Assembly: GCA_002473085.1 (NCBI GenBank) | Contig: DKTP01000101.1 | Coordinates: forward strand, 1 to 17,744 | Direction: 5' to 3' | Length of the DNA stretch: 17,744 nt | Source: Anaerolineales bacterium UBA7227 | GTDB lineage: Bacteria > Chloroflexota > Anaerolineae > Anaerolineales > Villigracilaceae | Shown: positions 6,569 through 9,402 of the stretch, piece after piece | How positions within the stretch are numbered: position 1 is the first letter of the stretch | How the letters are laid out: every line of letters begins with the position of its first letter | Program-made: the position numbers and the translations under genes | Notes under the pieces: model-generated | Database searches by the model: none | Told to the model about the DNA's origin: nothing | What the model saw: only the letters and a program-made list of their open reading frames with translations

Positions 6569-6611
6569 TGACCAGACAGACAAAATGGATTTATCGTACA
6601 AAGGAGCAGCC

Positions 6612-7808
6612 ATGAGCAAGGATACTGAATCCGTCATCCTTTCCGCGGTCCGCACGCCGAGCGGAAAATTTCAGGGAAGCCTCGCCTCCCTCCCCGCGCC
6701 GCAGTTGGGCGCGATCGTCGTCAGGGAAGCGGTGAAGCGCGCGGGGGTGGATCCCGCCGACATTGACGAGGCCTTCATGGGCAACGTCGTCTCCGCGGGG
6801 CTGGGACAGGCTCCCGCGCGTCAGGCCGCGATCGGCGCGGGGCTGCCGTCATCCGTCGGCGCGACCACGGTCAACAAAGTCTGCGGCTCGGGGTTGAAAG
6901 CCGCCATGTTCGCGGCGCAGGCCATCAAAGCGGGCGAGGGGCGATTGTTCGTCGCGGGCGGGTTCGAGTCGATGAGCCGCGCCCCCTACCTCGTCAACGG
7001 GCGAAGCGGCGAACTTCGCTTCGGTCACGCCCAACTCACCGACGCGCTGCTCAACGACGGCCTGTGGTGCGCGCTGGAAAATTGGAGCATGGGCGCGGCG
7101 GCAGAGTTCATCGCCGAAGAGTACGAGGTCACGCGCGAGGCGATGGACAAGTTCGCCTTCGAGAGTCACCAAAAGGCGCTTGCCGCCAGCGACGGCGGAA
7201 AGTTCAAGGCAGAGATCGTCCCCGTGGAAATCCAATCGAAAAAGGGCGTGACGGTTTTCGAGGTGGACGAAGCGCCGCGCCGCGACACGACCCTGGATGG
7301 ACTCGCCGCGCTCAAGCCCGCCTTCCAAAAAGACGGCAGGGTGACCGCGGGGAACGCGCCGGGTCTGAACGACGGGGCGGCCGCGGTCGTCGTCGCGAGC
7401 CGCGCCTACGCCGAGGCGCGCGGACTCAAACCGCTGGCGCGCGTCGTCGGCTACGATCAATATGCCGACGAGCCGAAGTATCTCTTCCGCGCCCCCGCGT
7501 TGGCGATTCCCAGGTTGCTGAAAAAAATCGGCTGGACGCTCGCCGACGTGGACCTGATCGAACTCAACGAAGCCTTCGCCGCGCAAGTCCTCGCGGACGG
7601 ATACGCCCTCGCGGACCAGGGCTGGGACTGGGACAAGGTCAACGTCAACGGCGGCGCGATCGCGCTGGGACATCCCATCGGCGCGAGCGGCGCGCGCATC
7701 CTGACGACGCTCATCTACGCGTTGAAAGATCGCGGGTTGAAGAGAGGTATTGCATCGCTATGTTTGGGAGGCAGCGAAGCGGTGGCGATGGCGGTGGAGG
7801 TTGAGTAG
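6612..7808 (+). CDS. Acetyl-CoA C-acetyltransferase (thiolase)
   Basis: A 398-residue thiolase that condenses two acetyl-CoA to acetoacetyl-CoA or cleaves the latter. Catalytic features are all present: nucleophile C91 in NKVCGSGLKA, NEAF (319-322), H354 in GHPIGASGA and C384 in CLGG. GGFESMSRAPYL and NDGAAA are also family hallmarks. The GGSEA after C384 differs from the usual GGGQG-like sequence, a minor oddity. The ATG at 6612 follows AAAGGAG by 5 nt; an upstream ATG at 6585 has no such site. Its stop codon is the first bases of the 8-nt repeat array. It very likely works with the 3-hydroxybutyryl-CoA dehydrogenase downstream. Acetoacetyl-CoA would also feed the mevalonate route that uses HMG-CoA reductase. 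Confidence 0.92.
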   Translation: MSKDTESVILSAVRTPSGKFQGSLASLPAPQLGAIVVREAVKRAGVDPADIDEAFMGNVVSAGLGQAPARQAAIGAGLPSSVGATTVNKVCGSGLKAAMFAAQAIKAGEGRLFVAGGFESMSRAPYLVNGRSGELRFGHAQLTDALLNDGLWCALENWSMGAAAEFIAEEYEVTREAMDKFAFESHQKALAASDGGKFKAEIVPVEIQSKKGVTVFEVDEAPRRDTTLDGLAALKPAFQKDGRVTAGNAPGLNDGAAAVVVASRAYAEARGLKPLARVVGYDQYADEPKYLFRAPALAIPRLLKKIGWTLADVDLIELNEAFAAQVLADGYALADQGWDWDKVNVNGGAIALGHPIGASGARILTTLIYALKDRGLKRGIASLCLGGSEAVAMAVEVE

Positions 7809-7901
7809 TCGCGTAGTCGGGTAGTCGGATAGTCGCGTGGTCGAGTGGTCGGGTGGCCGCGTGGTCGGGTGGTCGGGTGGTCAAATGGTCGCGTAGTTGG
7901 T
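7806..7901 (+). repeat. Left 8-nt tandem array (TRGTCGNN x12)
   Basis: Twelve phased 8-nt units start exactly at the thiolase TAG stop. They run tagtcgcg, tagtcggg, tagtcgga, tagtcgcg, tggtcgag, tggtcggg, tggccgcg, tggtcggg, tggtcggg, tggtcaaa, tggtcgcg, tagttggt. Units 1-4 carry TAGTC, most later ones TGGTC. The last unit (TAGTTG) is degenerate. The array is in opposite orientation to the one on the far side of the four-helix-bundle gene. Confidence 0.9.
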
Positions 7902-7962
7902 TGCTGACATGGAAAAGCGACTGGTAGTTCGATCATCCGAATTTAAAATATAGGAGGCGAAA

Positions 7963-8343
7963 GTGAAGATCGAGAAGTTCGAGGATATTCGCGCGTGGCA
8001 GCAAGCGCGAGAACTGACCAACCTCGTCTACGACTTGACCGAGAAAGGCAACTTCGTCAAAGATTATCGCCTTCGCGATCAGATCCATGGCGCGGCTGGT
8101 TCGATCATGCATAACATCGCCGAGGGATTTGACGATGGCTCCGACGTCGAGTTCATACGCTTTCTAAAGTATGCGCGGCGTTCCGCGAGCGAGGTTCAGT
8201 CAGAGACCTACCTCGCCCTCGACCGAAAGTACATTACCCCGCAGGATTTTCAACAAGTGTACGACATGGCGACGACAACAAAGAAATCCATCAACGCTTT
8301 TATCGCATATTTGCGAAAGTCCAAATCTGATTCAACCAGATGA
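7963..8343 (+). CDS. Four-helix-bundle protein (23S rRNA-IVS / Avd-like family)
   Basis: A 126-residue helical protein of the TIGR02436 'four helix bundle' family, first noticed in 23S rRNA intervening sequences and related to Avd of diversity-generating retroelements. Family signatures are FEDIRAWQQARELTNLVYDL (residues 6-25), FVKDYRLRDQIHGAAGSIMHN (about 31-51), IAEGFDDGS and EFIRFLKYARRSASEVQSE. YITPQDFQQVYD and a final helix with ILE-rich spacing and basic residues (AYLRKSKSDSTR) follow. The GTG at 7963 is supported by AGGAGG (7952-7957) 5 nt upstream. Avd-type proteins are basic and bind nucleic acid; the function of stand-alone copies is unknown. The gene is bounded on both sides by inverted 8-nt arrays. 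Confidence 0.88.
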   Translation: MKIEKFEDIRAWQQARELTNLVYDLTEKGNFVKDYRLRDQIHGAAGSIMHNIAEGFDDGSDVEFIRFLKYARRSASEVQSETYLALDRKYITPQDFQQVYDMATTTKKSINAFIAYLRKSKSDSTR

Positions 8344-8413
8344 CCATGCAACTATGCGACAACATGACTACGCGACTATGCGACAATGCGACTACACGAC
8401 TAACTGACAAGGA
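8342..8413 (+). repeat. Right 8-nt tandem array (GACTATGC-like x9)
   Basis: Nine phased 8-nt units begin within the TGA stop of the four-helix-bundle gene. They run gaccatgc, aactatgc, gacaacat, gactacgc, gactatgc, gacaatgc, gactacac, gactaact, gacaagga. The phase continues for one more unit (gacaacat, 8414-8421) into the ATG of the next gene. The AAGGAG ribosome site of that gene is part of the array. The reverse complement of GACTACGC is a rotation of TAGTCGCG, the left-array unit. Confidence 0.9.
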
Positions 8414-8419
8414 GACAAC

Positions 8420-9268
8420 ATGGATATCAAAAATATTTTTGTGATCGGCGCTGGAACGATGGGAAATGGAATTGCCCAAGTAGCCGCAACTTCTGGTTAC
8501 GCCGTCACCTGCATGGACGTCGTCCCTGCCGCGCTGGAGAAAGCGAAAGCAACCATCGCCAAGTCAACGGCGAAACTGCTGGAGAAGGGAGTCGTCACCG
8601 CCGAGCAAAAAGCCAACGCGGACAAGATCGTCTTCGTCGGCGACATGTCCACGATGAAGGACGCGGACCTGGTCATCGAAGCGGCGACGGAGAATCCCGA
8701 ACTGAAATTCAAAATTTTCAAAGACATGGACGCCAATGCGCGCCAGGGCGTGATCCTCGCCAGCAACACCTCGTCCATCTCGATCACCAAGATCGCCGCG
8801 GCGACGAAACGTCCCGACAAGGTCATCGGGATGCACTTCATGAACCCCGTCCCGTTAATGAAACTGGTGGAAGTGATCCGCGGCCTCGGCACGTCGGACG
8901 AAACGACGCAGACCGTGACGGACATCTGCAAGACGATGGGCAAGGAACCCGTCGAAGCGAACGACTCGCCAGGCTTCATCTCCAACCGCATTTTGTGTCC
9001 GATGATCAACGAGGCGGTCTTCGCCCTGCAGGAGGGAGTCGGCACGCCCGAAGCCATTGATACGGTGATGAAACTCGGCATGAACCACCCGATGGGGCCG
9101 CTCACCCTCGCCGACCTGATCGGACTCGACGTCGTCCTGTTCGTGATGGAAGTCCTCCAGCGCGACCTCGGCGAGGACAAATACCGTCCCGCGTACCTGC
9201 TGCGGAAGATGGTGGACGCGGGATATTTGGGAAGGAAATCGGGGAGAGGGTTCTATAAGTACCAATAA
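8420..9268 (+). CDS. 3-hydroxybutyryl-CoA dehydrogenase
   Basis: A 282-residue NAD(P)-dependent dehydrogenase, the standard length for Hbd/PaaH. It interconverts acetoacetyl-CoA and 3-hydroxybutyryl-CoA. The Rossmann motif GAGTMGNGIAQ (10-20) is followed by an acidic D33 in CMDVV, which favours NAD(H). The catalytic region has NTSS (116-119), H139 in GMHFMNPVP, E151, and N189 in NDSPGFISNRI. HPMGPLTLADLIGLD and YLGRKSGRGFYKY mark the C-terminal domain. The ATG at 8420 follows AAGGAG inside the right 8-nt array. It is probably in the same operon as the thiolase, giving acetyl-CoA to 3-hydroxybutyryl-CoA for butanoate, polyhydroxybutyrate or beta-oxidation; no other gene here decides which. Confidence 0.92.
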   Translation: MDIKNIFVIGAGTMGNGIAQVAATSGYAVTCMDVVPAALEKAKATIAKSTAKLLEKGVVTAEQKANADKIVFVGDMSTMKDADLVIEAATENPELKFKIFKDMDANARQGVILASNTSSISITKIAAATKRPDKVIGMHFMNPVPLMKLVEVIRGLGTSDETTQTVTDICKTMGKEPVEANDSPGFISNRILCPMINEAVFALQEGVGTPEAIDTVMKLGMNHPMGPLTLADLIGLDVVLFVMEVLQRDLGEDKYRPAYLLRKMVDAGYLGRKSGRGFYKYQ

Positions 9269-9328: not shown

Positions 9329-9356
9329 TTGACAATTCGCCAAATCCACTTATAAT
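9329..9356 (+). promoter_or_regulatory. Near-consensus sigma-70-type promoter
   Basis: TTGACA (9329-9334) and TATAAT (9351-9356) are both perfect hexamers with a 16-nt spacer. The expected start site, about 9363, falls at the left edge of a 23-bp dyad. This is the strongest promoter seen in the window and, with its operator, suggests strong but repressible expression of the two downstream genes. Confidence 0.85.
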
Positions 9357-9361
9357 ATAAG

Positions 9362-9384
9362 AGTACTTTATGATATAAAGTACT
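9362..9384. promoter_or_regulatory. Operator: perfect 10-bp inverted repeat over the start site
   Basis: AGTACTTTAT (9362-9371), GAT, ATAAAGTACT (9375-9384). The dyad sits immediately downstream of the -10 and covers the predicted +1, ideal for repression. The second gene of the operon encodes a winged-helix regulator, the natural candidate to bind here as a dimer; this pairing is inferred from position. Confidence 0.75.
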
Positions 9385-9402
9385 TCACAGAAAGGAGACA
9401 CC

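Follow-up and report, generated by a model that had tools for sequence, protein, structure and literature searches.

A gap in a thiolase/dehydrogenase operon of Anaerolineales bacterium UBA7227 (contig DKTP01000101.1), together with its counterparts in other genomes, suggests that there is a family of small genetic elements, probably mobile, that has not been described so far. The window, which is the whole stretch of 17,744 nt that was analyzed, carries one member at 7806-8413. In the reading that we favor, at odds slightly better than even (probability about 0.55), these are widespread small mobile or selfish elements with inverted tandem-array ends and a PF05635 gene as their sole gene. Their ends would consist of one 7- or 8-nt unit whose word varies by element lineage, and array hairpins lacking the gene would be non-autonomous forms, part of which arose by internal deletion. 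Operon gaps, from a stop codon to the following start signal, would be the sites of the elements, which are mostly oriented in the sense direction. The PF05635 protein probably assembles as a five-membered ring, which may act on the units of its own ends by marking or holding them, and the mobilizing enzyme would be supplied in trans. The functional pentamer of Avd and TRAP-like wrapping are the background to this mechanism.

The block separates two genes of one pathway, as the earlier note, made from the letters alone, had recognized, and it fits tightly between them: the first unit of the left array overlaps the thiolase stop codon, the right array overlaps the stop codon of the four-helix-bundle gene, and its last unit enters the AGGAG of the dehydrogenase gene (Table 1). 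The phased and mutually inverted 8-nt units described in that note, twelve on the left and nine on the right, were recovered at the same positions, and 7806-7818 is the reverse complement of 8366-8378 at 13/13 bases, exactly as it had stated. A repeat finder detected the 8-nt family in the window, as well as an inverted pair of 68 nt that is 74% complementary. When a three-unit TRGTCG pattern (8-nt spacing, two or fewer mismatches) was searched in the window, all 16 matches lay within or edged the two arrays, compared to 0.00 expected from 200 dinucleotide shuffles.

Table 1. Features of the block and of the neighboring operon genes in the window
Feature	Position	Strand	Basis
Thiolase, acetyl-CoA acetyltransferase family, upstream operon neighbor	6585..7808	+	PF00108/PF02803; TIGR01930 above cut-off
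Left array, 12 x 8 nt (TRGTCGNN), from thiolase stop codon	7806..7901	no strand	Repeat and pattern searches
AGGAGG, likely ribosome-binding site of the four-helix-bundle gene	7952..7957	+	Read off the sequence
PF05635/TIGR02436 four-helix-bundle gene, 126 aa, GTG start	7963..8343	+	Profiles, AlphaFold model, fold matches
Right array, 9 x 8 nt, inverse orientation	8342..8413	no strand	Repeat and pattern searches
AGGAG ahead of dehydrogenase start, edge of right array	8410..8414	+	Read off the sequence
3-Hydroxybutyryl-CoA dehydrogenase, downstream operon neighbor	8420..9268	+	PF02737/PF00725; PRK05808 above cut-off

Membership of the enclosed gene in the IVS/Avd-like family, proposed from its translation, was borne out by PF05635 (103.2 bits, cut-off 33.8) and TIGR02436 (98.3 bits, cut-off 24). 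The AlphaFold model of the protein is a helical bundle of high confidence (pLDDT 94.3), and a fold search matched 2gsc, 2rld and Avd (4dwl), with chains A to E among the matches for each. With a net charge of +1 and a pI of 8.1 the protein is close to neutrality, and the description of the bundle as basic fails. The proposal of a non-transposase element held, since the block contains no transposase and its gene matches PF05635 only and not the Y1 transposase. An Rfam search of 7000-9200 gave no match. The nearest named relatives of the gene, among the matches listed, were Anaerolineae MAGs. Two copies of a direct repeat, 18 nt long and A+T-rich, follow the dehydrogenase gene at 9350-9385.

The observation is far more general than the window alone, and the supposition that the gene and the inverted arrays belong together was confirmed at two scales. 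At each locus, the 200 bp upstream were scored for similarity to the reverse-complemented 200 bp downstream, with a threshold score of at least 16. Eight genomes of the genus, including the window's own and one same-species genome, contained 60 PF05635 matches; 55 were taken in, the 5 left out being below the family cut-off, and 54 were scorable. The inverted score reached 16 at 38 of 49 stand-alone loci, or 31 of 42 after removal of 7 same-species duplicates, compared to 4 of 265 control genes in 400 kb of the same-species genome (Fisher p = 6e-29 against 31/42), and at 0/5 members located beside a reverse transcriptase. Across GTDB (one genome per species), relatives were sought with an alignment of the window's clade, and the best 80 of at least 546 confirmed relatives were kept, which carry 11 phylum-level labels, assigned by record title, and come mostly from MAGs, so that single labels may be wrong. 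L158 was dropped owing to a short flank; at the remaining 79 loci of these best 80 of at least 546, the score was 16 or more in inverted orientation at 56 and in direct orientation at 12. Neighboring genes at the same loci reached it in 21/665 (inverted; p = 9e-48) and 28/665 (direct) cases, and one of those 21 (L125) resembles a family member itself. Within this best 80 of at least 546, inverted flanks were found at 30/38 loci labeled Chloroflexota, 10/17 Desulfobacterota-type, 8/10 Verrucomicrobia, 2/2 Kiritimatiellae, 2/2 Nitrospinae, 1/5 Planctomycetes, 1/1 each of Methylomirabilota, Neomarinimicrobia and Nitrospirae, and 0/1 each of Elusimicrobia and Cloacimonadota.

The five reverse-transcriptase-adjacent genes, at G000:C53:15417-16573 (L009), L021, L022, L028 and L033, lack inverted arrays and are probably DGR Avd genes; at L022, neighboring A-biased direct repeats resemble the template and variable repeats of a DGR. 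The window gene resembles DGR Avd in its fold and, at low score, in its Pfam family, but it has no adjacent reverse transcriptase. The single RVT_1 match in the window's genome is on a different contig, beside another PF05635 match.

The arrays were then dissected at 127 loci (8 same-species copies were dropped; L086 is the same as L170, so one locus is counted twice). A 7- or 8-nt array was present on both sides in 75 of them, and the period was equal on both sides in all 75 (43 of 7 nt and 32 of 8 nt), which 0/10000 permutations matched. The unit words, of 7 or 8 nt, differ between loci, and the notion of one special 8-nt word did not survive. When the upstream arm was compared with the reverse-complemented downstream arm of its locus, the 5-mer cosine averaged 0.41, whereas it was 0.065 for arms of other loci and 0.073 in direct orientation; among the 73 loci whose arms are free of N, 62 were better inverted, 9 better direct and 2 neither. 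In the 62 inverted loci, each unit consists of a core and a spacer, conservation being 0.86-0.96 at the best phase and decreasing stepwise until it is about 0.4 at the worst; the conserved phases are common to both arms (r = 0.45; the maximum of 500 null values was 0.06). The upstream arm was G+T-rich on the gene strand in 57 of the 62. Spacer positions barely match between the arms of these loci, and no excess of G-U over A-C was found between arms (29 vs 33 loci, p = 0.80). The visible constraint is the unit, rather than perfect pairing.

These features bear on an RNA-level explanation, which we regard as unlikely: the block would be the operon counterpart of a 23S rRNA intervening sequence, with the arrays as stem and the gene as loop, and RNase III would excise it from the message. 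Such intervening sequences involve PF05635-family proteins and complementary ends cut by RNase III, as described in an excerpt of PMC4990558, and a 23S rRNA IVP is named in a figure legend of a CRISPR survey (PMC10910872). The likeness extends to the protein family (S23/IVP gene) and to a gene looped between complementary ends. An RNA fold of 7800-8422 pairs the array arms around the gene (z -6.1, 20 shuffles); like the ends of an intervening sequence, the 68-nt arms are complementary and can form a stem. The gene orientation also suits a transcript-borne element, the upstream neighbor being on the same strand for 115 of 120 family genes, compared to 545 of 684 other genes. Against this explanation stand the absent G-U/A-C asymmetry, the poor spacer matching and the DNA-level duplications described below for one lineage. 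Moreover, the window block lies between two protein genes and not inside a 23S rRNA gene, its ends are tandem arrays with a locus-specific word, and gene-less copies are dispersed. The same orientation belongs to the reading we prefer, that of mobile elements residing in operons. The arrays lie between stop and start codons (medians -8 and +6 nt; 66 and 51 loci), and with this gap position and the sense orientation the gene would be transcribed as part of the host operon.

The unit goes together with the protein across unrelated sites. For 6056 locus pairs without a homologous near-flank ORF, protein identity correlated with unit similarity at r = 0.44, a value reached in 0/1000 permutations (maximum 0.13). 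Among pairs without homologous near flanks, units were shared (similarity >0.3) by 58% of 130 pairs at 70-80% protein identity and by about none of 679 pairs at 40-50%. In pairs below 60% identity, the correlation was weaker (r = 0.24), and the period did not track identity (r = -0.13). Between L325 and L330, from two genomes, 91% identity extends over 485 bp spanning the gene and arrays, and outside these 485 bp no common stretch of 120 bp or more was found in the 3 kb compared. At L119, L131, L172, L175 and L182, several adjacent gaps of one gene cluster are filled by hairpins of one unit.

The earlier note had made the association depend both on flanking arrays at homologues and on the arrays being scarcer where the gene is missing. 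The first part stood, at 31/42 and 56/79 loci; the second is less clear-cut, as arrays are also common without the gene. Array hairpins lacking the gene are scattered through genomes. Sampled genomes with the family contained 51 arrays in 725 kb and those without it 9 in 745 kb (20 genomes each; Mann-Whitney p = 0.005 for 14 with vs 16 without, genomes sampled over at least 20 kb), a comparison confounded by kinship since the family-free genomes are mostly from different taxonomic families, and based on a non-random choice of 20/47 genomes with and 20/104 without the family. At least one array occurred in 11/20 gene-bearing samples, the other 9/20 being array-free, compared to 5/20 samples without the family. 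No orientation bias of gene-less arrays was seen in 21 scored arrays, for which gene calls were crude.

In Desulfobacterota records, the hairpins have fixed ends, GTAACCGTTCAC on the left and a GTGAACGNNTAC-like sequence on the right. The left motif GTAACCGTTCAC occurred 61, 12, 2 and 53 times in four records, compared to 1, 0, 1 and 1 times for the reversed pattern. We examined 30 of 128 such places; 20 had a right end, corresponding to 17 distinct elements in three Desulfobacterota records. Target-site duplications were present at 11 of these 17, with 8/8 bp matching in 7 and 7/8 in 4, a level to which mismatched end partners rise in 0.2% of cases (7 matches) or never (8 matches). Three of the 17 are related to the gene: L359 contains it whole (4/8 duplication bases match), and L332 (259 bp, duplication 8/8) and L340 (162 bp, duplication 6/8) contain remnants 73% and 60% identical to family proteins, respectively. 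The remaining 14 showed no match to the family protein. The remnants indicate that part of the gene-less hairpins derive from gene-bearing ones by internal deletion, which is also how MITEs usually arise. Further gene-bearing copies with GTAACCGTTCAC-type ends matched at 8/8 (L326), 7/8 (L157) and 3/8 (L141) duplication bases, and L325, judging by its alignment with L330, has different ends; its 7-bp repeat is displaced by one base at the right end. Decayed family copies were seen in G188, where many of 27 PF05635 matches are short or interrupted by stops.

In Chloroflexota and Nitrospinae records, L153 (157 bp) and L165 (173 bp) have GTAACCGTTCAC-like ends and perfect 8-bp duplications, and no arrays at the ends inspected, so that such ends can exist apart from arrays.

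When array ends were checked at 124 family loci (some under two ids), duplications did not exceed the chance level, with 9/124 having 7 or more matching bases compared to 6.5% expected; at 44 hairpins, mostly from Chloroflexota with a few from L126 and L129, 7/8 was found in 1/44 (3.7% expected) and 8/8 in none. In view of these negative tests, DNA-level insertion is established for a single lineage. Among the window's relatives, a different mode of movement, old age or change in place may account for the result, and recent mobility of the window's own lineage is what we infer.

Several known systems share parts of this picture. Like MITEs, the elements include short gene-less copies with inverted ends, some with gene remnants, and 8-bp duplications in one lineage; unlike MITEs, they end in arrays, the gene of the longer copies is not a transposase, no parent transposase was found when IS66-type matches were checked, and duplications were not seen at the window or at the 44 mostly Chloroflexota hairpins. 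IS66 follows an end rule of GTAA and 8 bp. As a mobilizer it is not favored: 12 IS66-type matches were present in two of the three records, none with a GTAACCGTTCAC-like end (two or fewer mismatches, in the stretch examined), and the third record has element copies yet no IS66 match. REPINs, according to an excerpt of PMC3116915, are dispersed hairpins linked to a Y1 transposase (RAYT) gene framed by the same hairpin sequence, and dispersed hairpins together with a gene framed by that sequence are found here too; the differences are that the framed gene is not a Y1 transposase, that the ends are 7-8 nt tandem arrays, and that there are many words per genome. Each genome of the genus has one Y1_Tnp match (8/8; e.g., G000:C43:13085-13441), located in a long open frame of 541-593 aa, and its protein is a possible candidate for a hairpin-handling enzyme.

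The comparison of thiolase/dehydrogenase loci proposed earlier revealed relatives in which the slot has no gene or is filled by different hairpins. A search of 41 genomes from the taxonomic family located the dehydrogenase in 29, and the gap was readable in 25, of which the window and L191 have a gene-bearing element in this slot and L192, L194, L196 and L197 have gene-less hairpins of different units (judged by eye). The flanks of L107 (gene, TAGTC units) and L196 (gene-less, different units) are 93% and 85% alike. In L106-L111 and L090, too, the window element precedes the dehydrogenase, and there the core unit is kept and the unit order differs; with at least seven relatives having it beside the same dehydrogenase, it is not a frequent jumper. 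Upstream of the dehydrogenase in L188, L189 and L190, there are imperfect palindromes of the TCATTGCGAG...CTCGCAATGA type. In L080 and L084 (G007 C1), the gap hairpins have an apparent 9-nt unit (ACACAAAGG), and relatives have 7-nt arrays and the gene there.

The variable occupancy of the slot also bears on a host-regulator explanation, in which a ring protein would bind messages at gene junctions through their core-plus-spacer units, with gene-less arrays as its targets. The conserved core with a free spacer, the same phases in both arms and the location between stop and start codons would suit a regulator. So would the pN/pS of 0.08-0.14 of the window gene against 8 relatives of other species (dS saturated in most), a sign of purifying selection that also counts in favor of the mobile-element reading. 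However, the units in this operon slot vary between relatives and are absent in some, and decayed copies and duplications better suit a mobile element; we consider this explanation quite improbable. That slippage makes arrays in operon gaps and the gene merely sits in array-rich gaps is very improbable: gene-less arrays are indeed dense (94 runs of period 6-12 in 400 kb, compared to 5 in one block shuffle), but inverted flanks are rare at neighboring genes of the same GTDB loci (best 80 of at least 546 relatives) and missing from the reverse-transcriptase-adjacent members, and slippage alone is disfavored by the correlation of unit and protein across unrelated sites.

PF05635 is widespread, with, to our knowledge, no role assigned to its stand-alone members, and we know of no cause for the intergenic heptamer arrays that have been described. 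The link between PF05635 genes and arrays offers a testable explanation for both, and under it every protein should show a preference for the repeat word of its own element. The mobile-element reading would also add a new element type that keeps rebuilding gene junctions within operons. A further-reaching version, which we think unlikely, is that the ends are set by period and inversion and not by a fixed sequence, with a ring protein reading a lineage-specific 7-8 nt word that may drift provided that it is retained at both ends; if true, the elements would be a source of the unexplained heptamer and octamer arrays of many bacterial genomes. In the open-licence PubMed Central literature, as far as its texts were searchable, no paper was found linking PF05635 genes to flanking arrays. 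Intergenic heptamer arrays have been described for TAACTGA in Beggiatoaceae (PMC4679880) and GGGAATC in Xanthomonas (PMC4692102), and the terms S23 and four helix are absent from the main texts of both papers. In an excerpt of a Thiomargarita paper (PMC4853749), TAACTGA and MITEs are reported separately. Both published arrays resemble those analyzed here in being intergenic and of 7 nt, and TAACTGA, read backwards and shifted, is the CAGTTAT word of L024.
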